Part shown: positions 24,189-46,746 of the stretch, piece by piece | Layout of the letters: every line of letters begins with the position of its first letter | Numbering within the stretch: position 1 is the first letter of the stretch | Origin: Persicimonas caeni | GTDB lineage: Bacteria > Myxococcota_A > Bradymonadia > Bradymonadales > Bradymonadaceae | Length of the DNA: 64,000 nucleotides | Assembly: GCF_006517175.1 (NCBI RefSeq) | Contig: NZ_CP041186.1 | Span: 744,001 to 808,000, forward strand | Direction: 5' to 3' | Notes under the pieces: generated by a model | What the model was told of the DNA's origin: nothing | Databases searched by the model: none | What the model saw: the letters and a program-made list of their open reading frames with translations, nothing else | Made by a program: the position numbers and the translations under genes

Positions 24189-24279
24189 GCCACAAACCAC
24201 AAACTCCTTGGAATGCTGCACCATCGAGTCCATGTTGAAGGTGTTGACTTGTCCGGTCTTGCCTTTACAACACGGCATC

Positions 24280-25044
24280 ATGAACAGACGTGACTTCTTA
24301 AAAGCGGCGGCCCTCGCCGGGCTCGGGGCTCTTGTCCCCGGGCGCGCTTTCGCGATGGGCGAGGACGCCCACTTTACGATCGCCAAGCTGCAATACGCCG
24401 AGAGCGGGTGGGACCCGCGGCCGTCGGCGCTTCGTCGGCTTCTGTTGGAGGTCGAGAAGCGTACGAGCATCAAGGTCGATACCGACGTTCCGGCGGTAAA
24501 TGGTCTGTCGGCGGATATGTTCGAGCATCCGTTCCTGGCGCTGGCGGGCGACTCGAAGTTCGACCCGCTGCCCGACAAGATGGTCACGAACCTTCGCACC
24601 TACATGAAATCGGGCGGCTTTCTGATGGTCGACTCGGCCGAGGGCGTGCCCGACGGGCCGTTCATGAAGTCGGTCGAGCGTGAACTCGGACGTATCCTGC
24701 CCGACAAGAAGCTCGCGCCCATTCCTAAAGACCATGTCCTCTACAAGTCGTTCTACCTGATCGACCAGCCTCTGGGCCGGGTCAAGGTCGCCTCGCGCAT
24801 GCGGGCGATCTTCGATGAGGACCGCCTGTTGGCGGTGGTGTGTCCCAACGACCTGATGGGGGCGTGGGCGCGCGACAACTTCGGCAACTGGCGCTACTCG
24901 GTCAGCCCGGGCGGTGAGCAGCAGCGTGAGATGGCCTTCCGGTTGGGCATCAACTTCGTGATGTACGCGCTTTGCATCAACTACAAGGCCGACCAGGTGC
25001 ACGTGCCGTTCATCCTCAAGCGTCGCCAGTGGAAGGTGGACTGA
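24280..25044 (+). CDS. DUF4159 protein with Tat-type signal
   Basis: A 254-residue protein. It starts MNRRDFLKAAALAGLGAL, a twin-arginine-type export signal, then FTIAKLQYAESGWDPRPSAL, the typical entry to DUF4159. The domain has a glutamine-amidotransferase-like fold in its family, with segments such as GGFLMVDSAEG. DUF4159 genes usually sit with VWA, BatA-like and MoxR genes in envelope-stress or secretion clusters. Here the next gene, 3 bases downstream, is the VWA/amidotransferase-like partner. The ATG at 24280 is chosen because it begins the export signal. The function is unknown. Confidence 0.8.
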   Translation: MNRRDFLKAAALAGLGALVPGRAFAMGEDAHFTIAKLQYAESGWDPRPSALRRLLLEVEKRTSIKVDTDVPAVNGLSADMFEHPFLALAGDSKFDPLPDKMVTNLRTYMKSGGFLMVDSAEGVPDGPFMKSVERELGRILPDKKLAPIPKDHVLYKSFYLIDQPLGRVKVASRMRAIFDEDRLLAVVCPNDLMGAWARDNFGNWRYSVSPGGEQQREMAFRLGINFVMYALCINYKADQVHVPFILKRRQWKVD

Positions 25045-25047
25045 CCC

Positions 25048-27387
25048 ATGTTCGATTTCGGGGATTATAACGCAGGGGATCTGCTCTGGCTGGGCGATTG
25101 GAGCCCGACCTGGGTGGCGATCTTGGCGATCTTGGGCGTCGTGGTCATCGGCATCAGCGCCTACGACCTCAGAAACCTCGCCGCCCACCGGCGTTGGACG
25201 CTGGTGGGGCTGCGCGGCATCGTCTACGCCGTGGCGGTCATGCTCCTGTTGGAGCCGGCGATCGACCTCAAGCATATCTCGAAGGTCAAAAACGACGTCG
25301 CCGTGCTCGTCGACACGAGCCGTTCGATGGGGCTGAAGGCCGGCGAAGATGCCGACGAGACGCGTTTCGACCGCGCGAGTGCGGCACTCGACGAGATGAA
25401 GCCGCTCTTCGAGCGCACCAAAGAGGACCACAACTTCCACTTCTACGCGTTCGGTGATGACGTCCGTCCCTCGTCTCGAAACGCGCTCGCCGGCGCCAGG
25501 CCCAACGAGGATGCCTCGGATCTGACTGGCGCCATCGAAAAGATGCGCGAAGAACTCGACGTCGAGAACTTGGGCGGCGTGGTCGTCGTCTCCGATGGCA
25601 TCGACACCGGCGCCATCGGCCGGCGCATCAAGCGCGGCGAGGATGTCGACGAGGCGACGCTCGACCTGCTCGAGGAGCTCGACAGCCCAGTCAACACGCT
25701 CGCCGCCGCCTCTGAAGAGGGGCTGCGCGACGTGGCCGTGGCCCGCGTGCTCCACGACGACTTTGCCTTTGTGCACAACAAAGTCAGCATCGACGTCGAT
25801 CTGCAGGTGGTGGGCATGGAGGCGACGACGTTTCCGGTCCAGCTGCGCCGCGAGGGCGAGCTTTTGCAGACCCGCCAGGTGAGCATCACGCCGGACAAGA
25901 CCGACTACAAAGTTTCGTTCGAGCTGGTGCCCGAGCGCATCGGCAAAGAGATCTACACCGTCTCGGTGCCCGAATTCTCGGGCGAAGTGCTCACCGAGAA
26001 CAATATCAGCCACTTCCTGCTCAACGTGATTCGCGACAAGATTCGCGTGTTGCAGGTCGTCGGCCGACCGAGTTGGGACGAGCGATTCTTGCGTCGCCAC
26101 CTCAAGAAGAACCCGAATTACGACCTGATCAGCTTCTTTATCTTGCGCACCGACCAAAACGTGCAGTTGGTGCCCAACGACGAGCTGAGCCTGATCCCCT
26201 TCCCCACCCGGGAACTGTTCGAAGAGGAGCTGGGAAGCTTCGACCTGGTCATCTTCCAGAACTTCAACTTCGGGCCCTACAACATGCGCCACTACCTGTC
26301 GCGCATCGCAGGGTTCGTCAAAGATGGCGGCGGCTTTATCATGACCGGCGGCGAACTCAGCTTCGCCAGCGGCGGCTACGCCCGCACGCCTATCGAAGAT
26401 ATCTTGCCCGTCTACCTGCCGCCGGTGGGCCAGTCCGACAGTGTCATCGATCTGGAGCATTTCCGCCCGAACCTGACCAAGGCGGGCCTGCACCACCCGA
26501 TCACCCAACTCGCCTTCGATCCGCAGTCGAACGTCAAAATCTGGAGCGAGCTTCCCAAAATGCGCGGCACCAACATCGTCACCGGCGCCAAGCCGGACGC
26601 TACGGTGCTGGCGACCCATCCGAACCTGACCTTCAACGGCAAACCGATGCCCGTGGTGGCGGTCTCGGAGAAGGGTGACGGGCGGGTGATGTCGCTGACC
26701 TCCGACTCGACCTGGCGCTGGGCGTTCGAGAACGTCGGCAGCGGCGGCACCAACCGCGAGTATCAGGTCTTTTGGAACAGCGCGATTCGCTGGCTCATCA
26801 AAGACCCCGAGCTCAAGCTCATCGACGTCGAGGTTCCCGAAGATGTCCACGCTCCGGGTGAGCCGCTGGACGTGACGGTGCGTATCTCCAACCCGGACTA
26901 TACCCCGGCCAAGAACACCAAAGGGGTGCTCAAGGTGCTGCGGCGCCCGCTCTCCGAGCCTCGCGCCGAAGAGCTTCCGGCCCAAGAGCTTGTCGAGACG
27001 ATCGAGTTCCATACCGACCACAGCGGCGAGGCCGCCGTGTCGGTTCCGGTCTCCCAGACCGGCGTCTACGAGCTTGTCGCCCAGGCCTCGACGAAAGCCG
27101 GCGAGCTGAACGACCGCGACATCTTTTTGTCGGTGCCGGACGTCAATGAGTTTCGCCAAATCATCCCCCGCGACAAGTTGCTCGCCTCGTTGGCCGAAGC
27201 CTCCGGCGGCCACCACGCGGTCCTGCCCGACTTCGAAGCCTCCTCGCTTCGCTTCGAGCCCCCCAGTTATGTGAAGGTCAATCGGCGAAAAGTCATTCAG
27301 CTGTGGGACAGCTTTGTGCTCTTTTTCGTCATTCTGGGACTTCTGGGAACCGAGTGGACGCTCAGGCGCCACTGGGGCCGGATGTAA
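25048..27387 (+). CDS. Membrane protein with VWA domain and amidotransferase-like domain
   Basis: A 779-residue membrane protein. Two N-terminal transmembrane segments (about 15-37 and 52-70) precede a von Willebrand A domain with the metal site DTSRSM at 89-94 and VVVSDG further on. Residues about 330-500 resemble the glutamine-amidotransferase-like fold found in this family (IRVLQVVGRPSWDE, GGGFIMTGGELSFASGG). A C-terminal helix near 755-772 anchors the end. The stop of the DUF4159 gene is 3 bases before its ATG, so the pair forms an operon. Such pairs usually come with MoxR ATPase and DUF58 genes, which are not seen here. The role is unknown. Confidence 0.8.
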   Translation: MFDFGDYNAGDLLWLGDWSPTWVAILAILGVVVIGISAYDLRNLAAHRRWTLVGLRGIVYAVAVMLLLEPAIDLKHISKVKNDVAVLVDTSRSMGLKAGEDADETRFDRASAALDEMKPLFERTKEDHNFHFYAFGDDVRPSSRNALAGARPNEDASDLTGAIEKMREELDVENLGGVVVVSDGIDTGAIGRRIKRGEDVDEATLDLLEELDSPVNTLAAASEEGLRDVAVARVLHDDFAFVHNKVSIDVDLQVVGMEATTFPVQLRREGELLQTRQVSITPDKTDYKVSFELVPERIGKEIYTVSVPEFSGEVLTENNISHFLLNVIRDKIRVLQVVGRPSWDERFLRRHLKKNPNYDLISFFILRTDQNVQLVPNDELSLIPFPTRELFEEELGSFDLVIFQNFNFGPYNMRHYLSRIAGFVKDGGGFIMTGGELSFASGGYARTPIEDILPVYLPPVGQSDSVIDLEHFRPNLTKAGLHHPITQLAFDPQSNVKIWSELPKMRGTNIVTGAKPDATVLATHPNLTFNGKPMPVVAVSEKGDGRVMSLTSDSTWRWAFENVGSGGTNREYQVFWNSAIRWLIKDPELKLIDVEVPEDVHAPGEPLDVTVRISNPDYTPAKNTKGVLKVLRRPLSEPRAEELPAQELVETIEFHTDHSGEAAVSVPVSQTGVYELVAQASTKAGELNDRDIFLSVPDVNEFRQIIPRDKLLASLAEASGGHHAVLPDFEASSLRFEPPSYVKVNRRKVIQLWDSFVLFFVILGLLGTEWTLRRHWGRM

Positions 27388-27568
27388 ACGCGTGCGGCGA
27401 TTTTCGCTGCGAAAGTTGAGACAATTGATTCTCTGCGATACATTGGGCACAGCAAATTTGCCCTGTTCAACGCGTCTGATCGGCAGAGACTGAGCGGTGC
27501 CCTCTAAGGCACCCGCCGGTGGTAGTTCCACCGTCAGAGGCAGTGAACCCAGTGCTCGAGTAGTCCGC

Positions 27569-30500
27569 ATGGGAGAGACTCCCGAAGTCGTAAAAATCGC
27601 TTGCCCGGGTTGTGAAACTCAGTTCCGACTCAAGCCCAAGAAAGGGCGGCTGCCGGAAGGCCCTGTTCCCTGCCCCAAGTGCGCCGAGAGCATTCCGGTC
27701 GTCGAGGAGAATATTCGGCGCAGCGACGTGCAAAAGCGGGAGAGCGATGCCCCGCAGGCGCATGTCTTCGACACGCCCGGCGCCTCCGGCTCGCAGCGAC
27801 AGCGAACTGGGACGATGGCGGGCTCACCGGTCAAGACGCCTCATCGCCTGGACGCCGTCGACCCCGACGACGAGTTCGATGACTTGGTCGTCAGCCCCGG
27901 CCTTTCGGATAGCAACCCGAAGTCGACCTTCCTGGGGATGGGGTCGGCCCTCCCCGCGATCAACGGCTCGAGTGGTCGCCGCGACAAAACCGCGGTCGTC
28001 GATGACGAACTCCTCGAGAAAATTCGCAGTGAGTCGAGCGTCGTCGAGGACGATGACGACAAAGAGAAGAAAGAGCGCCGAGCCCCGTCTTCGAGCGACA
28101 AAGAGCACGACCCGCTGCGCGACACGGCCGAGCGCGAAGATGTCTTCAAGCGCAAGACCTCCGAGAACAAGGCCATCAAGCCCGAGGACCTCATCCAAGC
28201 CGAGGAGTTGAAGGAGGAAGGCGAGGAAGACGACGCCGACGCAGATAAGAAGAGCAAGAAGGAGAACAAGCAGGCGCCGGGGCAGATGGTCTTGGGCAAG
28301 ATCAAGATCAAGAAGAAGCTCAAGCGTCGCTCCAAAAAGCCGATTGGCGCCCGCGCGGCCAAGCCTGGCGAGACGAAGGACGACTCGAAAAAGCCTTCGC
28401 TCTCGGCGCTGCTCAAGAAGGCGCGAGATCGAAAAGGCAAGCTCAATATTCCGGCGCCGAAATCAGACGACTCGACGGGCAGTGGAACGCCCGCAGAGGC
28501 CAGTGATGATCTCGAACGCGCTCTCGATGACTTGGCCAGTGAGACCGCGCGCGCTATCCGTGCGGAGGCCGGCGCCGACTCGACCAAGACCGCAGAGCCG
28601 GACGAGAAGGATCAGACGCCGCCGCCCTTCGACACCGGCGACTCGACGATGATCGAGTTGCTGCGACGCCGGGTCGCTGAGGATCAGCAACCGGGCGCGG
28701 CCAGCGAGCGCCGTGGCAGCGGCTATATCCGTCTGCCGACCGCCGAGATTCAAGACGTCCTCGGCCAGGGGACCTACCGGCTCCGCGTCGAAGACATCGT
28801 CTACGAACCCATCGACAAAAAAGGCCTGACGCAACTGGTCAAGCGGGGCGTGCTGCTCGGTGCCGAAGAGATCGCCGATTTCGACGGCGATTGGATGCCA
28901 ATTGCGGACCACCCGGTCTTCAAAGAGCTTCGTCGCAAGATGGCGCGCGAAGCCCACGACTTGTTGAAGCAGTACGGCGGCGGCGATTCCGGGTCCACCG
29001 AGGCAGACGACGCCGAGCTGCCGGCGCCGCAGGCCGACCTTCCGGCGCCGCAGGCCGACCTTCCGGCACCGCAGGCAAGCCTGCCCAAGCCAACCGAGCC
29101 GAACGCCGACGGTTCCTCGGCCGAGCTCGACTTCAGCGGCATACCCACCCTCGAGGCCGAACTCGAAGAGGAAGCAGAGCAAGCTGCTCGTGAACTCTTC
29201 GCCGACGATGAGGAGGACGCCGAGGATATGGCCGCGCCTCCGCCGATGCCGGGACCGCAGCCGCAAGACGACGCCCCGAACCTCCAAGACGAGGCCGACG
29301 ATGGCTCGGTCCAGCTCGACTACGATGCGCTGGGGGTCGACGAAGAAGACGTCGAATTCGAGGAATCCGTACCGGCAGCCGAAACCGGCTCGCACCGCGC
29401 AGCTGGCGGCGGGTCGATGCGTACCTGGCTACCACTGCTCACCGCAGCCGTGGTCTTGGGAGGGATCGCCGCCTTCGCTTTCTCGCCGATGGGCCGTCCC
29501 TACGTGGACAATCTCTTGGGTGAGGAGGCGTCGACCGACGACACTCCAAAGCCTGCTTCGACCAAGGCTGTGAGCGTTGAAAAAGAGGAGAAAAAAGAGA
29601 GCGCGAAAGTCGACGAAGCGATCGACGAGGCGACCTCGAGCCTGCACGCTGCGCTGGCCGTCGATCCTAACGATGCCACCTTGCAGGAACAGGTAGCCGG
29701 CCAACTCGCCGATGAGGGTGAGCATGTCCGCGCGGCCAAAATCCTCGGGGTGCTGTGGCAAGAGCGGCAGGATGACGCAGACTTCGCCGCGCGCTACGCG
29801 AACGCCTTGTTGGCAGCCGGAGACCACGCTCGAGCCCGCGCCATCGCGATCGACGGCGTGCAACTGGGCGAGAACAAGAACGCATTTGCCAAGCTCTTCG
29901 CCAAAGCGATCCAAGAAAATCCGGAGCTGCGAGCTTACGAGGTCGTCGACGTCGCTCTCGGTGAGCATGCAGACGGCGCCAATGCGGAGTCCGAGGGCAA
30001 GCGTGTGGTGCTCGAATTGACCAAAGGCGACGCACACTCCTTCACCTTCAAGCCGTCTCAAGCCGGCTGGGAAGAGGGTTGGCGTTCGAGCATTGCCTCC
30101 TGGCGTTTGTGCCAGATCATGGCCTGCAACTTCGAGGTGCCGCACAGCCAGCCGGCACGTCTCGACAAAGCCAGCTTCGACAAGCTCGGCATCGAGGGAC
30201 CGGCGTCCTCGCGCCTGTCGCGGCTCAACTGGGTTACCGAAGATGGCAAGCAGTACGTCTACGGCGTGCTGCAAGCGGCCGTCGCCGAGCCGGCTCGCTT
30301 CCCCATCGAAGACACCGACGTCTGGCGTGGATGGCTCCTCCCGGGCAGTTCCGCGGCGATGGACGCCCCGGCAACAGAAGCAATCTCGGGTGTCGAGAAT
30401 CGCTTCCAGGCGCCCCTCGAGGCTCAACTGGGCGACACGCCCCTGGCCGAACTGGCCGGAGACCTGTCGACGGTGCTCGTGTTCGACTTTTTGACCAACA

Positions 30501-30838
30501 ACTGGGACCGCTTCCGTGGCAATCCCGACCAGTGGGGCACGAACCTGCACCTGGTCGACGGCTCGCTGGTCTCGAAAGACAACGGCACCGCGTTCCAGCC
30601 TCGCGCCTCGACGCGTGTAAAGGGGCGGTTCCGCTGGACGAGCCGTTTCAGCCAAGACACGATCACCTCGCTGCGGTTGATGGATCCGAAGCTTGTCTCC
30701 GACAAGCTCTTCCCGAAAGCCTCGGCGGCCGAGAAGGCCAAGCTCGAGGTGTTTTGGAGCCAGCGTGACGAAGTGCTCGAGCGAGCCGATTCGCTCACCG
30801 ACGTCCACGGCGCCAAAGAAGTGCTTGCCTTCGAGTAG
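27569..30838 (+). CDS. Membrane protein: zinc ribbon, disordered region, TPR-like and FAM20/HipA-like kinase region
   Basis: A 1089-residue protein. An MJ0042-type zinc ribbon (CPGC at 12-15, CPKC at 35-38) opens it, then a long charged, disordered stretch, a GYF-like or related small domain at about 360-465, a Pro/Ala/Gln repeat (LPAPQAD three times) and one transmembrane segment at about 617-637. Beyond it lie TPR-like helices and a C-terminal region with kinase-like features: FKPSQ, then SIASWRLCQIMACNFEVP, then VFDFLTNNWDRFRGNP near 970 and KDNGTAF near 1003. These resemble the active-site motifs of FAM20C and HipA-like atypical kinases. If real, the kinase lies on the far side of the inner membrane. 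The ATG at 27569 sits directly before the zinc ribbon. Confidence 0.65.
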   Translation: MGETPEVVKIACPGCETQFRLKPKKGRLPEGPVPCPKCAESIPVVEENIRRSDVQKRESDAPQAHVFDTPGASGSQRQRTGTMAGSPVKTPHRLDAVDPDDEFDDLVVSPGLSDSNPKSTFLGMGSALPAINGSSGRRDKTAVVDDELLEKIRSESSVVEDDDDKEKKERRAPSSSDKEHDPLRDTAEREDVFKRKTSENKAIKPEDLIQAEELKEEGEEDDADADKKSKKENKQAPGQMVLGKIKIKKKLKRRSKKPIGARAAKPGETKDDSKKPSLSALLKKARDRKGKLNIPAPKSDDSTGSGTPAEASDDLERALDDLASETARAIRAEAGADSTKTAEPDEKDQTPPPFDTGDSTMIELLRRRVAEDQQPGAASERRGSGYIRLPTAEIQDVLGQGTYRLRVEDIVYEPIDKKGLTQLVKRGVLLGAEEIADFDGDWMPIADHPVFKELRRKMAREAHDLLKQYGGGDSGSTEADDAELPAPQADLPAPQADLPAPQASLPKPTEPNADGSSAELDFSGIPTLEAELEEEAEQAARELFADDEEDAEDMAAPPPMPGPQPQDDAPNLQDEADDGSVQLDYDALGVDEEDVEFEESVPAAETGSHRAAGGGSMRTWLPLLTAAVVLGGIAAFAFSPMGRPYVDNLLGEEASTDDTPKPASTKAVSVEKEEKKESAKVDEAIDEATSSLHAALAVDPNDATLQEQVAGQLADEGEHVRAAKILGVLWQERQDDADFAARYANALLAAGDHARARAIAIDGVQLGENKNAFAKLFAKAIQENPELRAYEVVDVALGEHADGANAESEGKRVVLELTKGDAHSFTFKPSQAGWEEGWRSSIASWRLCQIMACNFEVPHSQPARLDKASFDKLGIEGPASSRLSRLNWVTEDGKQYVYGVLQAAVAEPARFPIEDTDVWRGWLLPGSSAAMDAPATEAISGVENRFQAPLEAQLGDTPLAELAGDLSTVLVFDFLTNNWDRFRGNPDQWGTNLHLVDGSLVSKDNGTAFQPRASTRVKGRFRWTSRFSQDTITSLRLMDPKLVSDKLFPKASAAEKAKLEVFWSQRDEVLERADSLTDVHGAKEVLAFE

Positions 30839-31758: not shown

Positions 31759-34113
31759 TCACTCCTCCAGCATCCCCTCCTCTCCTTGCTGTTCGGGCTG
31801 GATCTGCTGGTCCTGCTGGAGCTGTTGGTCTTGCTGCTGTTGACCTTGCTTTTGGTCTTCAGCGGGACCACCACCAACCGCGGGCTGCTCGACCTTTTGC
31901 GACATCTCGTTGATCACGCTCGAGGTGTCGGTGAAGAACTGCTGCACTGAGTCCTTCTGCGCGGCGAGCGGCTTGTTGGTGTCGATCTTCTGAGCCATCT
32001 GATCGAGCTGCTGGACCTGGCTTTGGAACTCAGCAAATTGCGGTTGCTGCTGCATCGACTGAAGAATGTTCACCGTCGACTGCACACCCTTCTGGAGATG
32101 CTGAGGGTGCTCGTAGACGCTCTTGCTGTCTTGGAGCTTCTGAGCAATCTGCTGCAACTCTTGGCTTTGCTGCTGGACCTGTTGGGGATCCAACTGCTGT
32201 TGAGCCTGTTGGCCTTGCTCCTGCTGGCCTTGTTGTTGCTGGCCTTGTTGTGGCTGGCCTTGTTGTTGCTGGCCCATCTGCTGCTGTTGGCTCTGCGCCT
32301 TTTGGACCTGCTGGGAGAGGGTCTCGAAGGAGTTACTCAGCAGCACGAAGCCGTTGCTGGTGTAGCCGTTATGAACTTCACCGGCTTTCGTGTCTTTGGC
32401 CCATTGCGTGAAGTACTGCAGCTTTTGTTGGGGCTGCATTTCTTGCTGGGCTTGCTGCTGTTGGCCCTGTTCCTGCTGGCCTTGCTGCTGTTGGCCCATT
32501 TGCTGCTGGTCTTGTTGTTGACCCTGCTGCTGTTGACCCTGTTCCTGTTGGCCTTGCTGTTGTTGCCCCTCGGTCGGACCACCGCCGACGGCGACCTTCT
32601 GTGACATCTTGTCGATCACATCCCCCGTCTGAGTGAAGAACTGATTGAGCGAGTTCTTCTGAGCAGCGAGCGGCTTGGTCGCATCGATCTTTTGCGCCAT
32701 CTGGTCAATCTTGTTGACCTGGCTCTCGAGACCGGAGAACTGCGGCTGCTGCTGCATCGACTTCAGGAGGTTGACCGTGGTCGTGACGCCTTGTTGGAAC
32801 TGCTGCGGGTGTTGGTAGACATTTTTGTTGTCTCCGAGCTGCTGGGCCACCTGCTGCAACTGCTGGGTGTGCTGCTGGATCTGCTGCTCGTCCATCTGAG
32901 CTTGCTGTTGGCCTTGCTGCTGTTGCCCTTGCTCTTGCTGGCCCTGCTGCTGTTGGCCTTGCTCCTGTTGGCCCTGCTTCTGGACCTGCTGGGCGAGGGT
33001 GTCGAACGAGTTGCTCAACAGCACGAACCCATTGCTCGAGTACCCGTGGAACGACTGACCGGGCTGCTCATTCTGAGCCCATTCGTTGAAATACTTCAGC
33101 TTGTCCTGGGGCTGCATTTCTTGCTGGGCCTGCTGCTGTTGGCCTTGCTCCTGCTGGCCCTGCTCCTGCTGGCCCTGCTGCTGTTGGCCTTGCTCCTGCT
33201 GGCCCTGCTGTTGCGGGCCGCCGCCGACCGCGAGCTTCTGGGAGATCGTATCGATCGCCTTGCCGCTTTCGGAGAAGAAGCTCTGCAGTGAGTTCTTCTG
33301 CGCAGCGAGCGGCTTGTTGGCGTCCATCTTGGCGGCCAGATCGTCGAGCTTCTGCGACGGTTGTCGCAGGTCGCTGAACTGCGGCTTGTCCTGCATGGTC
33401 GACAGGATGGTCGACACCGTTTGAGCGCCGACTTGGACCAGTTGCGGGTGCTGATAGATATTCTTGTTGTCGCGAAGTTGTTGGGCCACCTGTTGGAGCT
33501 TCTGGCTGTGTTGTTGGACCTTTTGTAGGTCCTGCTGGCTCATCTGCTGCTGACCTTCTTGTCCCTGCTGCTCACCTTGCTGCCCTTGTTGCTGCAGGAT
33601 TTGGCCCTGCTGCTGGAGCTGCTGGGAGATGGTGTCGAACGAGTTACTCAGCAGGACAAAGCCGGTGCTGGCATACTCCGGATACACCTCGCCGGGCTTT
33701 TCGTTCTTGGCCCAGTCCGAGAAGTACTGCAGCTTTTGTTGGGGCTGCATGGCCGTCTGGCCCTGTTGTTGCTGGGCCATCTGCTGCTGGTCCTGCTGGG
33801 CCATTTGCTCCTGGTCCATCTGCTGCTGGCCCATCTGCTCTTGGTCCTGCTGGGCCATCTCCTCTTGGTCCATCTCCCCTATGGGAGGTTGTCGGACCTC
33901 GTCCTGTTGAGCAGCTTGCTCTTGCTCCTGGTCGTCGAAGATGCCCTCTTCGGTTTCTTCTTCACCGAGTTGGGCCTCTTCTTCGGCTTCGACTTCGACG
34001 CCGGGCTCTTGTTCGAGCTCGGCTCCTTCCTGCTCGGGTTCGCAGGCAAGGCCGAAACCGGCCAACGCCAATGAACCTAGCAATGCTGCGATCTTACGTT
34101 GGAGACTGCTCAT
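31759..34113 (-). CDS. Glutamine-rich exported protein with three copies of the Q-module (array member 1)
   Basis: A 784-residue protein of unknown family. A signal peptide (1-23) ends FGLAC, a possible but weak lipobox, followed by an acidic Glu/Gln linker (24-80). Three modules follow at about 122-300, 333-513 and 558-750. Each has the same plan: a Y-F-x-x-W start, ASTGFVLLSNSFDT or similar, a low-complexity linker of GQQEQGQQQQ units, then QQL...YQHP, then NKPLAAQKNS and FF, ending VGGGP. Trp, His-Pro and the GGGP end are kept while linker length differs. The tail is acidic. CGGAGGTC precedes the ATG. It is transcribed last in the five-gene array. Leu-rich frames on the other strand are shadows of CAG codons. 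Confidence 0.85.
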   Translation of the reverse strand: MSSLQRKIAALLGSLALAGFGLACEPEQEGAELEQEPGVEVEAEEEAQLGEEETEEGIFDDQEQEQAAQQDEVRQPPIGEMDQEEMAQQDQEQMGQQQMDQEQMAQQDQQQMAQQQQGQTAMQPQQKLQYFSDWAKNEKPGEVYPEYASTGFVLLSNSFDTISQQLQQQGQILQQQGQQGEQQGQEGQQQMSQQDLQKVQQHSQKLQQVAQQLRDNKNIYQHPQLVQVGAQTVSTILSTMQDKPQFSDLRQPSQKLDDLAAKMDANKPLAAQKNSLQSFFSESGKAIDTISQKLAVGGGPQQQGQQEQGQQQQGQQEQGQQEQGQQQQAQQEMQPQDKLKYFNEWAQNEQPGQSFHGYSSNGFVLLSNSFDTLAQQVQKQGQQEQGQQQQGQQEQGQQQQGQQQAQMDEQQIQQHTQQLQQVAQQLGDNKNVYQHPQQFQQGVTTTVNLLKSMQQQPQFSGLESQVNKIDQMAQKIDATKPLAAQKNSLNQFFTQTGDVIDKMSQKVAVGGGPTEGQQQQGQQEQGQQQQGQQQDQQQMGQQQQGQQEQGQQQQAQQEMQPQQKLQYFTQWAKDTKAGEVHNGYTSNGFVLLSNSFETLSQQVQKAQSQQQQMGQQQQGQPQQGQQQQGQQEQGQQAQQQLDPQQVQQQSQELQQIAQKLQDSKSVYEHPQHLQKGVQSTVNILQSMQQQPQFAEFQSQVQQLDQMAQKIDTNKPLAAQKDSVQQFFTDTSSVINEMSQKVEQPAVGGGPAEDQKQGQQQQDQQLQQDQQIQPEQQGEEGMLEE

Positions 34114-34242
34114 GAGACCTCCGTTCGTTAGTATCTAACCTCCGAGTGAGCGCCACCTCCGCCCTTGTGCACGGCGTCGATGACCTCGTCTCCGGTCCAA
34201 ATGTACGGACGCGGCAGAACTCGGGAATGAAAAGTACGACTT

Positions 34243-35010
34243 CTATTGGCCCTGCTGGCCAGGACTTTGCTGGGACTGCCAGGTCTTTTCGGCCATCGCG
34301 CGGACCACGTCCGAGGATTGCTTCAAGAACTGGCGCACCTGCTTGTCCTGGGCGGCCACGGGCTGGTTGACGTCAATTTGCTGGGCCGAGTTGTTCAATT
34401 GCTGCACTTGGCTCTGCAACTCGGGAAAGCGCGCCTGTTGAATCGAGCCGATGGTGCTGGCCGCAGCCAGCGACGCTTGCTTGAGAATCTGTGGGTGTTG
34501 TGGAATCTGGGAGTTCTCCTCCAGCCTGAGCGCGAGGCTACGCAACGCCTGCTGCGACTGCTGGAAATTCGAGCTCTGGCTGACCGTCGTCTGCGTCGGA
34601 CCTCCGCCGGCCTGCGCGCCCGGCCCCATCACCGGTTGATTGGCAATGGTGTTCAGCGAGCTCCACAACAGGTTGAGCCCCTTGCTGGCATGCTCGTGGC
34701 TGATCTGGACGTCCTGTTGTTGAGAGACCTCCGAGAACTGGAGGAAATGGCGAACGTCGTGGGCGCCAATACCCGCGATGGGACCGCCGCCGATTTGGCG
34801 AATTTGCTGCTGATTTTGCAGGATCCCCTGCTGCTGGACACCTTGTTGCTGGAGTCCCCGCTGTTGGGCTTGTTGCGGCTGCTGGATCTGTTGCTGTTGC
34901 TGGCGTTGTTGCTGTTGCGCCTGCTGTTGTGAGACATCCTGGGCTGCTGCCGTTCCGGCGAGGCCCATCGCAGCGATCACAACTGCTGCCTCTTTGAACC
35001 AACTCTTCAT
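34243..35010 (-). CDS. Glutamine-rich secreted protein with one Q-module (array member 2)
   Basis: A 255-residue protein. It has a plain signal peptide with an AAAQ cleavage region (1-23), then about 45 residues almost entirely Gln with some Arg and Ile (QQQQIQQPQQAQQ). The module follows from IGGGP at about 75: VRHFLQFSE, ISHEHASKGLNLLWSSLNTI, a shorter second Gln segment, LRLEENSQIPQHPQILKQAS, then IDVNQPVAAQDKQVRQFL and an end near MAEKTW. The His in HEHAS and the HP pair are shared with the other members. No lipobox is present, so it is probably free in the periplasm or outside. GAGGTC lies before the ATG. The function is unknown. Confidence 0.85.
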   Translation of the reverse strand: MKSWFKEAAVVIAAMGLAGTAAAQDVSQQQAQQQQRQQQQQIQQPQQAQQRGLQQQGVQQQGILQNQQQIRQIGGGPIAGIGAHDVRHFLQFSEVSQQQDVQISHEHASKGLNLLWSSLNTIANQPVMGPGAQAGGGPTQTTVSQSSNFQQSQQALRSLALRLEENSQIPQHPQILKQASLAAASTIGSIQQARFPELQSQVQQLNNSAQQIDVNQPVAAQDKQVRQFLKQSSDVVRAMAEKTWQSQQSPGQQGQ

Positions 35011-35091
35011 AACGACCTCGTGCGTCGAAACTGAAAACTCTCGGTGGGCGACGGGCTCGCTGGCGCGGCGGCCGGCGAGCCCGGCGCTGCG

Positions 35092-36120
35092 CTATTCTTG
35101 CTTCTGCTGCTGGCCTTGGTTTTGCTGCTGGCCTTGCTGCTGTTGACCTTGGTCTTGCTGCTGGCCTGGCTGCTGCTGACCCTGCTGAGGCCCGCCTCCC
35201 ACGGCACCGACCTGAAGATTCTGCGACATCTGATCGACGACTTGAGCGCTGGCCTTGAGGAAATCGCGCACCTGAGTAGCCTGGGCGACAATGGGCGTAT
35301 TGATGTCGAGTTGCTGGCTCAGCTCACGCACCCGATCGATCTGATCGGAAGCATCGGGCAGGCCGACTTGCGACATTGCGTCGAAGAGACTGACCGTCGA
35401 CATCGCCGCGTTTCGCATCAGGAACGGATGCTGGATCACGTTGTCGGTCTCCTCGAGTTCGAGGGCGATGTTGCGAAGTTGACGCTGCTGCTTTCGGATG
35501 GTCGCCAACGCATTGTAGCCCTGTGGGCTCACCTGAGTGGGAGCTCGCTGCCAGCCGTATTGCGGCGCGGGCCCGCCTCCCTGCGGGGAGCCGTACTGGG
35601 CTGGACGCTGGAGATTTGCCTGATCGATGATCGCGTCCGTGGCCGCCCACAACATGTACAGACCCGTGCTCGCCGTCTTGTGGTTGACCAATTCGATGTT
35701 GTCGACGGTGTCGGCCCACTGGGTGAATTGGCGAATCGAGGCGACGCTCGTCGGGCCGCCACCGATGGCCTGGTACTGTTGTTGCGGTACGAACTGCTGG
35801 CGCTGTTGGAGCTGTTGCGGCTGCTGGTACTGCTGGCCGAATTGCTGCTGCGGTTGTTGGAACTGCTGTCGGGGTTGCTGCTGGCCGAATTGCCGCGGCT
35901 GTTGAAACTGCTGCTGCGGTTGTTGGAGTCGGCGTTGTTGTTGCTGTGTCGGCTGCTGGTTCTGCTGAGCTTGGCCTTGTGCTTGTTGTGCTTGCGGTTG
36001 CTGGGCTTGCTGAGTGCCCGGCTGACCTTGTTGAGCCGCCGCTTCTCTCTCGCAGCCCACCGCCCCGGCGAGGGCCAGTGCTGCGAGGACGCCGACGGCG
36101 CGTTGGGTCCAGAGCTTCAT
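35092..36120 (-). CDS. Glutamine-rich probable lipoprotein with one Q-module (array member 3)
   Basis: A 342-residue protein. The signal peptide ends LAGAVGC (possible lipobox), followed by about 95 residues of Gln with Pro, Phe and Arg (QQQFQQPRQFGQQQP). The module runs from AIGGGP at about 118: RQFTQWADT, HKTASTGLYMLWAATDAI, an inserted Gly/Pro/Tyr/Gln loop, LELEETDNVIQHPFLMRNAA, LDINTPIVAQATQVRDFL, and VGGGP at about 313. A second Gln tail ends the chain. Of the five this keeps the least pure Gln in its loop. AAGGAGGATTT precedes the ATG. It lies 83 bases downstream of member 4 and 81 bases before member 2. Confidence 0.85.
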   Translation of the reverse strand: MKLWTQRAVGVLAALALAGAVGCEREAAAQQGQPGTQQAQQPQAQQAQGQAQQNQQPTQQQQRRLQQPQQQFQQPRQFGQQQPRQQFQQPQQQFGQQYQQPQQLQQRQQFVPQQQYQAIGGGPTSVASIRQFTQWADTVDNIELVNHKTASTGLYMLWAATDAIIDQANLQRPAQYGSPQGGGPAPQYGWQRAPTQVSPQGYNALATIRKQQRQLRNIALELEETDNVIQHPFLMRNAAMSTVSLFDAMSQVGLPDASDQIDRVRELSQQLDINTPIVAQATQVRDFLKASAQVVDQMSQNLQVGAVGGGPQQGQQQPGQQQDQGQQQQGQQQNQGQQQKQE

Positions 36121-36203
36121 AAATCCTCCTTACTTCGATGGTTCAGATGGCTTGGCTGGCCGAGATGCGCTCCTTGTGGCTCGATCACTGAGTTGTGGCT
36201 CGA

Positions 36204-37301
36204 TCACTGAGCGCTCTCATCCTGCTGCTGTTGCTGCTGGCCCTCCTGTTTTCGACCCTTTTGCTGCTCCTGCTCTTGCTGCTGTGATTTCTGCTGGGGT
36301 TGCTGGAGCTGGTCTTGCTGGAGGGGGCCGCCGCCAATGGCGCCCTGGACCTGCTGGGGCGAATAGGCTTCAACGACATCGGCTGCTTGGTTGAAGAATT
36401 GCTTGACCTGTTTGTTTTGGGCGATGACCGGCTTGTTGATGTCGATTTGCTGGGCCGCTTGGCGCACCTGCTGGATCTTTTGGGTCGCCTGCGGGTTATA
36501 GCCCGGCTGGAGGACCGCCATGATATTGGCCGCCGACAGCGCCGCGTTTCGCAAGATGCGCGGGTGCTGGTCGGCCACCGCGTTCTCCTCGAGCACGCTC
36601 GCCAGCTGGCCGAGTGCTTGTTGCTGCTGTTGGATCTGCTGGACGCCCATCGGCCCATACTGCTGCATCAGCCCACCGTAGACGTTGCGCTGCTGCACCA
36701 ACGTGTCGAGGGTCGAGCTCAACAGACTCAGCCCTTCACTGGCATGTTCGTGGTCGACACGCCCCTTGGACTGCGAGGTCGCCGAACTCCACTTGCCGAA
36801 TTGTTGCAGTTGCTGGGCTGCACTCACCGGCTGCATGGCGGGCTGCCCCATGAAGCCCTGTTGACCAAATTGGCCAAACTGCGACTGCCCATAAGGTGGT
36901 TGGGCGAAGGGGCGCTGGGCGAATGGTTGCTGTTGAAATTGCGGCTGCCAGCCATACTGGGGCTGCCAACTCGGTTGGCCGTACTGTTGGGAGTAGTAGG
37001 GTTGCTGTTGGAATTGCGGCTGCTGCTGGAATTGCTGTTGAAAGTACGGTTGGGGCTGGAACTGTTGGCCGTAGTAGGGCTGCTGTTGGAATTGCGGTTG
37101 CTGGAACTGCTGCCAGCTCGGTTGTTGAAACTGGGGTTGATTGGTCTGAGCCCACTGTGGGCTTTGCTGGAACTGCTGGGTGCGCTGAGTCTGAGGTTGT
37201 GCCTGCGGGTTTTGCGCGTCACTGCTGCCCTGGGCAAACGCCGTCGCGGTCACCGCGACGCCGACCACGAGGGCAGCCAATATTTTGAACCACCGTTTCA
37301 T
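36204..37301 (-). CDS. Glutamine/aromatic-rich secreted protein with one Q-module (array member 4)
   Basis: A 365-residue protein. The signal peptide ends TATAFAQ (about 1-24). Residues 30-155 are a low-complexity region of Gln, Phe, Tyr, Pro and Trp (QFQQQPYYGQQFQPQP), which resembles aromatic-Gln prion-like or phase-separating sequences more than the other members do. The module then reads LQQFGKWSSA, HEHASEGLSLLSSTLDTL, a Gln segment, LEENAVADQHPRILRNAALS, IDINKPVIAQNKQVKQFF and AIGGGP near 323. The tail is Gln/Lys-rich. ACGGAGGCAAG lies before the ATG. It is 163 bases downstream of member 5, with two hairpins between. Confidence 0.85.
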   Translation of the reverse strand: MKRWFKILAALVVGVAVTATAFAQGSSDAQNPQAQPQTQRTQQFQQSPQWAQTNQPQFQQPSWQQFQQPQFQQQPYYGQQFQPQPYFQQQFQQQPQFQQQPYYSQQYGQPSWQPQYGWQPQFQQQPFAQRPFAQPPYGQSQFGQFGQQGFMGQPAMQPVSAAQQLQQFGKWSSATSQSKGRVDHEHASEGLSLLSSTLDTLVQQRNVYGGLMQQYGPMGVQQIQQQQQALGQLASVLEENAVADQHPRILRNAALSAANIMAVLQPGYNPQATQKIQQVRQAAQQIDINKPVIAQNKQVKQFFNQAADVVEAYSPQQVQGAIGGGPLQQDQLQQPQQKSQQQEQEQQKGRKQEGQQQQQQDESAQ

Positions 37302-37368
37302 CTTGCCTCCGTTGGTTACGCCTTATCGGGGGCCTACGAACAACCCCCCATGATCCCGTCCGAGGACA

Positions 37369-37450
37369 GAGCAGGTCGGGAACACCCACTGAGCGTGGTC
37401 CCGACCTGCTCCCCCTCCAAACAGTCACGCCGGCAACGGATGCCGGCGTG
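37369..37450 (-). terminator. Two hairpins between array members 5 and 4
   Basis: First, GAGCAGGTCGGGA at 37369-37381 pairs with 37399-37411, 13 bases perfect. Second, CACGCCGGC at 37426-37434 pairs with 37442-37450, 9 bases perfect. They follow the member 5 stop. No T-run follows either, so they may be attenuators or processing signals rather than full terminators. Confidence 0.45.
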
Positions 37451-37464
37451 GTGTGTGGTGACGG

Positions 37465-38430
37465 TTACTGGCTGATGCCTTCGTCTTGCTGTTGTTGCCC
37501 CTCGGTGGGTCCGCCACCGGTGGCCTGTTGCAGGTTTTGCGACATCTGGCTGAGCACCTGCTCGGCCTGATTGAAGAAGTCGCGCACCTGCTGTTCCTGT
37601 TGGGCCAGTGGTTGGTCGACTTGGAGCTGCTCGGCGCTCTGCTGCAGGTTTTGAAGCGGTTGATTCAACTGTTGGTCGAGGTTGACCTGTTGGGCCATCG
37701 ACGACAACAGGTTCACCACGTTGTTGGCCGCTTCGTTAAACGCCTGGGGCTGGTTTTGCTCTTCGGCTTGCTGCAGTTGGCTGAGCGACTGCTCGAATTG
37801 TTGCTGTTGCGTTTGCATTTGTTGCTGCGCGGCCTCGTCCTGCTCGGGACTCGGCCCGCCGCCGACCTGCTCGCCCTGTTGGGGCTGTTGCCCGTCGAAT
37901 AGCAAGATCACGCCTTCGACCGCGCCACCCAGACGCTCCGAGCCTTCGCGCACATAGTCTTGGTCGACCTGCGCTTGCTGCTCCTGCTGGTTCCACTGGC
38001 TGAACTCTTCGACCCCTTGCGCATCTTGGGTCTCTTGGGTGGCTTCGAACTCACCGGTGCCCGGGGCCTCGCCCAGGACCTGCCCGGCGCGGTCAGCCTG
38101 CTCGCCCTCTTCTTCAAAGACGCCGTTTTGGTCTTCGAAGATTTGATCGCCTTCGCCGCCCTCACCGAGCTCGCCCAGCTCCTGCTCGGCTTCATCGCCA
38201 AGCTGGCCGAACTCTTGGCCGGCCTCCTCCAGGCCCTGCTCGGCCTCTTGGCCAAGCTGCTCGGTTTCTTCGATGGCGCTGATTTCGCCGGTCTCGTCGT
38301 AGGCGCCCTCGTCGTCATCGACCGCCGCCGCGACCCACCAGACGACGAGCGCCACGGCGACAATGCCGACGATGACCCACACCCAACCGGCTCGATTGCG
38401 TGAACTACGTCTTCTTTGTGTATCTGCCAT
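37465..38430 (-). CDS. Membrane-anchored glutamine-rich protein, most diverged Q-module (array member 5)
   Basis: A 321-residue protein, first in the array. A basic start (MADTQRRRSSRNRAGW) and one transmembrane segment at about 17-36 (VWVIVGIVAVALVVWWV) give an N-in anchor with no cleavage site. An acidic Glu/Gln linker follows (40-125). The module is recognisable but diverged: EFSQWNQQ, then YVREGSERLGGAVEGVILL in place of the HxxAS segment, VGGGP, a Gln loop, NNVVNLLSSMAQQ, VDQPLAQQEQQVRDFFNQ and ATGGGP near the end. The HP pair is missing. GGAGGAGGAGAC directly before the ATG at 38430 decides the start. It is probably the inner-membrane member of the set. Confidence 0.85.
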   Translation of the reverse strand: MADTQRRRSSRNRAGWVWVIVGIVAVALVVWWVAAAVDDDEGAYDETGEISAIEETEQLGQEAEQGLEEAGQEFGQLGDEAEQELGELGEGGEGDQIFEDQNGVFEEEGEQADRAGQVLGEAPGTGEFEATQETQDAQGVEEFSQWNQQEQQAQVDQDYVREGSERLGGAVEGVILLFDGQQPQQGEQVGGGPSPEQDEAAQQQMQTQQQQFEQSLSQLQQAEEQNQPQAFNEAANNVVNLLSSMAQQVNLDQQLNQPLQNLQQSAEQLQVDQPLAQQEQQVRDFFNQAEQVLSQMSQNLQQATGGGPTEGQQQQDEGISQ

Positions 38431-38616
38431 GTCTCCTCCTCCAAACTGCAAAGGCACGCCCTGTGCTGAAACTTCTCAAGCTAGGTATCGCAAGAGCCGA
38501 CCTACGCTGGCCTGCCCCACGGCATACTCGACGCGCCACATTGCCAACATAGACACATGGCGGTGCCGCCAAGGGATGCTGTTGACGCTAAATCTCAAAA
38601 GCGGGGACATAACTCG

Positions 38617-45839: not shown

Positions 45840-46746
45840 ACTCGTCGGACCGCAGACAGCTCTAAGAGTGCCAATCACGCTGTTCGTACCCTTTGCTTGG
45901 TGATGCTGGTCAGCCGCAGTGGCTACTACGCCTGGCGCAACCGAAAGCCGTCGAAGCGATCCCGTGCAAACGCAGCCTTGCTCGAGCATATCCGGCGTAT
46001 CTTCGAGGCATCGAAGGGACGCTACGGTGCCCGGCGAGTGCTGCGTGCGCTCAAGCTCGAGGGCCACCAGGGCGGCAAGCACCGCGTGGCTCGGCTGATG
46101 CGTGAGAACGGCCTGTTTGCCCGTCGTCGTAGAGCGTTTCGTGCGACCACTGATTCAAAGCATGCCTATCCGGTGGCCGACAACGTGCTCGACCGGGACT
46201 TTGAGGTCGATTCTCCCGATCAAGCATGGGTCGGCGACATCAGCTACATCCCAACTGCCCAAGGTTGGCTGTACTTCGCGGTGCTCATCGACCTGTACTC
46301 GAGGCGTGTCGTTGGTTGGGCGATGAGCAGCCGCATCGACCAGAAACTGACACTGAGCGCGCTTCGTATGGCACTGGCGCAGAGACAGCCGGACAGGGGC
46401 TTTATCCACCACACAGACCGAGGCTCACAGTATGCGGCACACGCCCATCAGGACGAGCTTCGACGGGCTGGTGCCATCGTCAGCATGAGCCGCAAGGGCA
46501 GTTGCTGAGACAACGCGCCCAGCGAGAGCTTCTTTTCGACCATCAAGACCGAGCTGATTCACGAGAGGCGATTTGAGACCCGAGACGAGGCCAAAGGAGC
46601 CATCCTGCGCCACCTGATGTGGTACAACGCGCACCGACTTCACTCCTCGCTCGATTACCTGTCACCCATGCACTTCGAGAGTTTGCAATTGACCGACCGA
46701 AAGGCGGCGTAGACCATGTAGCCCACGTGTCCGAAAACCGGGGTCA
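45840..46746 (+). mobile_element. Decayed IS3-family insertion sequence
   Basis: Most of the orfB part of an IS3-family element. The right end is tgtccgaaaaccggggtca at 46728-46746, a typical terminal inverted repeat of this family. The matching left end and orfA are missing; the left border merges with the citrate synthase remnant near 45832-45850. It is therefore a 5'-truncated, non-mobile copy. Confidence 0.75.
45897..46712 (+). pseudogene. IS3-family transposase orfB, truncated and with an internal stop
   Basis: The integrase core is recognisable: VSRSGYYAWRNRKPS, GRYGARRVLRAL (HTH_21-like), then the DDE domain with WVGDISYIP (first Asp), LIDLYSRRVVGWAM, HHTDRGSQYAAH (second Asp) and the end PSESFFSTIKTEL (Glu). 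A TGA at 46506 falls where IS3 relatives have Trp in the CWDNAP motif, so the frame is broken. Downstream coding continues in the same frame to a TAG at 46712. Together with the missing orfA this makes the copy inactive. Confidence 0.85.

Follow-up and report, generated by a model that had tools for sequence, protein, structure and literature searches.

Among described systems, the closest to the proteins reported here are the antiparallel helical bundles of the designed DpHF18/DpHF19 filaments and of gp41 five-helix constructs, the four- and five-helix domains of talin, vinculin and FAT, the exported bundles of cytochrome c'/b562-like and metal-resistance periplasmic proteins, the exported glutamine (Gln)-rich low-complexity stretches of curli and Fap, and the XVIPCD effectors of the X-T4SS, in which a conserved domain is accompanied by a Gln-rich stretch (PMC6536674). 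Here we describe an array of five tandem genes, P1 to P5, at positions 31759-38430 of a 64,000-nucleotide stretch of the Persicimonas caeni genome (the window: bases 744001-808000 of the one contig, of 8,047,206 bases, that makes up the genome). An earlier note, made from the letters of the window, had described five same-strand genes for Gln-rich exported proteins with one module in seven copies, and the open reading frames (ORFs), the alignment and the shuffle controls given below bear this out. We put at roughly 0.45 the probability of the following statement as a whole, including its functional part: the genes encode an undescribed exported family in which six-helix bundles are held on disordered linkers and serve as non-enzymatic structural parts of the envelope. 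The family-and-fold part of this explanation, an undescribed module family with a six-helix fold, is very probable.

The likeness to the antiparallel bundles is one of geometry (VIA-align Z 12-14, 139-163 residues), and the values up to 14 obtained on designed bundles and gp41 constructs may reflect common helical geometry only; the matched proteins are designed or viral, show 9-11% identity to the module and gave Foldseek E-values not below 0.12. Weak profile and fold echoes were obtained from the talin, vinculin and FAT domains (I/LWEQ, VBS, talin R4, FAT), but these belong to eukaryotic cytoplasmic proteins and none came over a curated cut-off. The cytochrome c'/b562-like and metal-resistance proteins are also exported helical bundles, and sub-threshold matches to Metal_resist (0.0021) and Cytochrom_C_2 (0.39) were seen among relatives of the window proteins; in contrast to them, the module has no Cys-x-x-Cys-His (Cys is absent from all seven window copies in the alignment) and no conserved His or Met pair or ligand set in 45 aligned modules. 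Curli and Fap share exported Gln-rich stretches with the window proteins, whereas here conservation falls on the folded helical module: relatives do not preserve the Gln content, and where curli and Fap homologues keep fibre-forming repeats, the Gln linkers of this family are replaced by acidic or mixed ones. Unlike the XVIPCD effectors, whose VirD4-recognition domain is C-terminal and which lack an N-terminal export signal, the window proteins have N-terminal export signals or a transmembrane (TM) helix (5/5) and several modules, and their Gln flanks the module on either side. Papers on Gln-rich proteins exported by bacteria and on the proteomes of Bradymonadales yielded nothing on the module family.

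The shared module and its predicted fold

One module of about 150-190 residues is common to all five proteins and is present in seven copies, three in P1 and one each in P2-P5, which align along their length. With the Gln-rich loops removed, 21 of 21 module pairs beat 300 shuffles each in local alignment (z 10.9-58.9), every real score exceeding its best shuffle. The genes and module copies are as follows, with stop codons included in the ORF coordinates:

37465..38430, minus strand: P5, 321 aa, membrane-anchored; TM helix, second helix, linker and one six-helix module
37507..38025, minus strand: P5 module copy (alignment; profile match 3.3e-54)
36204..37301, minus strand: P4, 365 aa, putatively secreted member with AxA-type signal; residues 24-158 rich in Q/P/F/Y/G, then one module
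36324..36827, minus strand: P4 module copy (alignment; profile match 2.4e-59)
35092..36120, minus strand: P3, 342 aa, lipobox with Cys23; Gln-rich linker; one module
35188..35751, minus strand: P3 module copy (alignment; profile match 2.5e-76)
34243..35010, minus strand: P2, 255 aa, putatively secreted member with AxA-type signal; one module
34246..34770, minus strand: P2 module copy, the copy chosen for folding with AlphaFold2
34348..34350, minus strand: codon for Gln141 in the P2 module, the one residue that never varies in the family (45/45 modules)
31759..34113, minus strand: P1, 784 aa, lipobox with Cys24; three modules with Gln-Gly-Glu linkers between them
33214..33750, minus strand: P1a module copy (pairwise scores, alignment, profile match)
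32575..33117, minus strand: P1b module copy (pairwise scores, alignment, profile match; P1b/P1c non-synonymous divergence, dN, 0.19 and synonymous divergence, dS, 1.67)
31864..32439, minus strand: P1c module copy (pairwise scores, alignment, profile match)

The earlier note had characterised the copies by an ordered list of motifs. Several of these motifs are less regular than it had supposed: F-x-x-W is F-x-x-F in P2, QHP reads EHP in P1c and is lost in P5, N-x-P-x-x-AQ is replaced by DQPLAQQ in P5, and the terminal GGGP is missing in P2, whose GGGP sits before the module and in its loop. QHP is not the family signature, which is instead the helix pattern together with a single Gln: the residue that opens helix 6 is the only invariant position in the 45 aligned modules, and most of the other conserved positions are hydrophobic or small (Gly, Ala) and belong to the core. 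With one invariant Gln and the rest mostly core, a fold appears to be maintained without a catalytic set, which makes an enzyme unlikely; the pattern supports selection on the module family for its fold, and conservation hints at no active site. A metal site built from HEHAS and QHP was rejected, as these His residues are not retained in relatives.

No Pfam-A family came over its curated cut-off for the five proteins or the seven modules, the best scores lying far under it, and the same held for NCBIfam (P2 module 18.7 bits versus 125 required), in agreement with the earlier view that no recognised family has this plan; PHROGs gave a single stray match among 19 modules. For the AlphaFold2 model of the P2 module the input comprised 19 aligned modules, from the window and five loci of relatives in metagenome-assembled genomes only. 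The model is a six-helix bundle with a mean predicted local distance difference test score (pLDDT) of 88.6 and a predicted template modelling score (pTM) of 0.85, its helices spanning residues 2-18, 25-44, 64-84, 92-114, 116-130 and 138-168 (module numbering), confidence being low in the helix 2-3 loop and the C-terminal tail. Full-length P5 was modelled with a mean pLDDT of 78.3 (module blocks mostly 93-98) as a TM helix (11-38), a second long helix (52-88), a low-confidence linker and the six-helix pattern seen in P2; in the models this pattern thus recurs in the most diverged member. Foldseek searches with the P2 module model gave no match at E<=0.001 against the PDB, the best not falling under 0.12, and none at this threshold against a viral structure library. 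By sequence, profile A1 reached at best E 0.61 in the PDB and profile A4 reached 0.0006, only on designed helical repeats: natural PDB proteins gave no convincing match to the module. The earlier expectation of a folded core under selection is supported. A low-complexity artefact is rejected by the shuffles, the recurrence in relatives and the six-helix model.

The five ORFs are ordered P5 to P1 in the direction of transcription, spanning 38430-31759 with intergenic gaps of 81-163 bases, and a Shine-Dalgarno-like sequence lies shortly upstream of the ATG in 5/5 genes; for P5 this supports as start the ATG at 38430, as used in the earlier note, and not the upstream GTG at 38457. Read from the sequence, with no signal-peptide program, the N-termini of P1 and P3 carry lipobox-like signals (Cys24 and Cys23), those of P2 and P4 carry signal-peptidase-I-type cleavable signals (AxA), and that of P5 has a positive stretch followed by a membrane helix. 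By these export-type N-termini, themselves well supported, all five proteins are predicted to be exported or membrane-anchored, and the envelope or extracellular location previously proposed gains support as well. Third-position GC is 0.72-0.75 in P1-P5, somewhat under the 0.76-0.91 of four conserved neighbouring genes; such a difference is expected with so many CAA codons. A promoter and terminator scan of the locus found no signal over chance; GC-rich hairpins without T-runs in the intergenic stretches 37302-37464 (P5/P4) and 35011-35091 (P3/P2) could attenuate transcription.

Linkers and the GGGP tag

The Gln content of P1-P5 is 20.9-32.3%; in the other listed long ORFs of the window it does not exceed 8% and is almost always below 6%. 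It reaches 52% in residues 24-123 of P3 and likewise in the P2 linker; residues 24-158 of P4 hold 42% Q, 15% P, 10% F and 6% Y at a net charge of +1, and the first linker of P1 and the linker of P5 carry about 30 net negative charges. Pure codon-repeat slippage or trinucleotide expansion was rejected as an explanation: CAG and CAA both occur, and such DNA repeats as the linkers contain are short and degenerate. Runs of seven Gln codons occur nowhere in the P. caeni genome. Linkers of relatives are acidic in most genera and charged and serine-rich in Bradymonas, Gln-rich ones being found in Persicimonas and partly in G009, a genome of the same bacterial family. Because relatives carry acidic or mixed-charge linkers while the module stays, Gln richness is not the essence of the family: it is a local feature and the least conserved part, the module being what relatives keep, and the Gln-rich, amyloid-like character offered in the earlier note does not hold as a core property.

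A second feature of the linkers is the tetrapeptide GGGP, with 24 occurrences in family proteins of five genera versus 5 in 136,578 residues of other ORFs at the same loci. As a [V/I]GGGP tag it is found in linkers or loops at loci L053, L054, L056, L066 and L052 and in the window at 31759-38430 (enrichment about 37-fold over other ORFs), for the most part at the edges of modules and within the loop that joins helices 2 and 3. Among 31 [V/I]GGGP-type DNA matches in the whole P. caeni genome, six lie in the array locus and the others are scattered singly, with no second multi-copy cluster. The tag might cap linkers, serve as a binding motif or mark a cleavage site.

Relatives and the history of the array

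The recurrence in related genomes that the earlier note had suggested looking for was found with a profile of the seven copies, which picked up the module in 13 of the 21 genomes from its own bacterial family (7/13 genera) and in none of five genomes from the other family of the order. A profile widened with relatives was run on 379 genomes and retrieved, besides the 13 from the family, three (G156, G219 and G297) that belong to a single genus of a different family in the phylum, and one doubtful match in G065. Same-family proteins hold 1-4 modules each; those of the remote genus are single-module lipoproteins, several of them encoded as adjacent pairs (L100 7795-9211, L101 7205-8738 and L104 6526-8054), and many end in a short P-x-GT-[QR]-like tail. 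Profile-profile comparison of the family with these lipoproteins gave a probability of 97.3%, E 1.8e-11 and a score of 72.7 over 141 columns, where 120 column- or block-shuffled profiles scored at most 29.5 and a reversed profile 12.9. A plasmid or phage origin was rejected, as neither 72,556 plasmids nor 50,697 phages gave a tblastn match.

In Bradymonas sediminis (G002, 5,045,683 bases) two module genes, one for a membrane-anchored and one for a secreted protein, occupy the same slot in the same relative orientation, at 1,864,298-1,866,047 of the chromosome (locus L052, 8299-10048) and between homologues of window genes 38636 and 30925, so that the slot neighbours are conserved on both sides. 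In the module tree P5 groups with the membrane-anchored Bradymonas protein (99/94). The six modules of P1-P4 all cluster together (97/72), beside the Bradymonas secreted protein (91/70). From slot and tree we therefore conclude that an ancestral pair was kept, its secreted partner having expanded in Persicimonas to four genes that hold six modules; support for the precise branching is only moderate. For the modules of P1, dN (0.19-0.33) is well under dS (1.3-1.7), the latter being near saturation and dN/dS hence a rough guide only; with dS already this high, the expansion is no recent event, and amino-acid replacement is under constraint.

Genera g8 and g10-g13 have MoxR-DUF58-BatA clusters in which a membrane-anchored single-module gene adjoins the BatA-VWA gene or lies one gene off; on every contig that extends far enough, DUF58 and MoxR genes are found past the BatA-VWA gene. 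Membrane-anchored single-module proteins with long acidic linkers are encoded beside or near a BatA-VWA gene at L061, L063, L068, L069 and L106-L109, and in the far-reaching loci L061, L063, L068 and L069 metallophosphoesterase and transglycosylase genes come after. Where included in the module tree, the BatA-associated proteins form a clade of their own (97/93) apart from P5, and no module gene stands alongside the MoxR-DUF58-BatA cluster of P. caeni; because of these two observations the association is not carried over to the window.

Three further window features were noted. At 24208-27387 lies a pair of DUF4159 and VWA/GATase1-like genes, kept in Bradymonas, with no MoxR gene recognised beside it; 27497-30838 encodes a 1113-aa protein with a zinc-ribbon-like CxxC N-terminus and TM-like and TPR-like stretches, 43% identical to the Bradymonas protein at the same place; and an ORF at 45897-46508 resembles, on our own reading of the sequence, part of an IS3-type transposase.

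Proposed role and competing explanations

We infer the location, mutual binding and structural role of P1-P5 as follows: P5, anchored in the inner membrane, would hold its bundle in the periplasm; P1 and P3 would hold theirs via a lipid-modified Cys; and P2 and P4 would be set free. The bundles may bind one another, or a shared envelope partner, by helix packing, and the linkers would act as spacers, setting reach and hydration. A more specific version is doubtful: a modular Bradymonadales envelope assembly in which an inner-membrane bundle and secreted or lipid-anchored multi-bundle chains would polymerise or dock via the shared module, the linkers being tuned to salinity by exchange of Gln for acidic residues. 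Several points weigh against a structural envelope role. It is deduced in part from a lack of catalytic conservation; the module model has no close solved relative that could lend it a function; the near-saturated dS weakens the reading of dN/dS; gene order and a spacing of 81-163 bp do not prove co-transcription; and the family is missing from 8/21 genomes of its own bacterial family, the closed genome G001 included, and so is not essential to the lifestyle of the group.

P. caeni is a contact-dependent predator on surfaces whose type strain came from a solar saltern, and it has been suggested to form biofilms as it preys (PMC7188933). Contact killing and the proposed biofilm would suit an amyloid-like or sticky matrix, in which Gln-rich regions assemble extracellularly in a prion-like manner and the helical module is merely carrier or brake, as would the near-neutral Gln-rich stretch of P4 and the linkers of P3 and P2; we nevertheless regard this as unlikely, since at the same site or on the same module relatives have acidic or mixed linkers, so that Gln assembly is not the conserved function, and the strongly negative charge of the first P1 linker and of the P5 linker disfavours amyloid. 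Hydrophilins have more than 6% Gly and a hydrophilicity index above 1, and are largely unfolded. A hydrophilin-like role in envelope stress, in which soluble and strongly hydrophilic exported chains of salt-adapted bacteria would guard the proteins of the envelope from salt and desiccation, is unlikely to the same degree: the mature chains of all five proteins have 6.8-11.1% Gly (over 6% in 5/5) and a grand average of hydropathy (GRAVY) of -0.84 to -1.38 (beyond -1 in 3/5), and the saltern origin of the type strain fits (PMC7188933), but the module is conserved and predicted to be folded (pLDDT mostly >90), and it is the unfolded part whose composition differs between relatives. Both accounts are weaker than an envelope scaffold or spacer, which is the most likely reading.

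Lower still we place the possibility that the proteins serve a MoxR-DUF58-BatA (VWA) envelope machine as partners or clients, docking being the task of the membrane-anchored member. The module genes near BatA-VWA genes in g8, g10, g11, g12 and g13 speak for it, as does the DUF4159 and VWA-GATase1 pair that both P. caeni and B. sediminis have at a distance of several kb from the array, whereas the P. caeni cluster without an adjoining module gene and the separate clade of the g8/g10-g13-type proteins speak against it. The least probable of the explanations is a predation factor, with secreted members acting on prey or mediating prey attachment: contact-dependent predation (PMC7188933), export-type N-termini and expansion in a broad-prey species would fit, but G001, probably the predator Microvenator marinus, lacks the family, which argues against a core role, and the Pfam and NCBIfam scans gave no toxin or enzyme signature.

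The array adds, in a little-studied predatory group, a family absent from curated libraries that combines a confident predicted fold, a signature residue and a clear history of tandem expansion. It is also a clean case in which low-complexity linker chemistry shifts between relatives while the GGGP tag and the folded module persist, and because of this, what disordered linkers conserve becomes directly testable.

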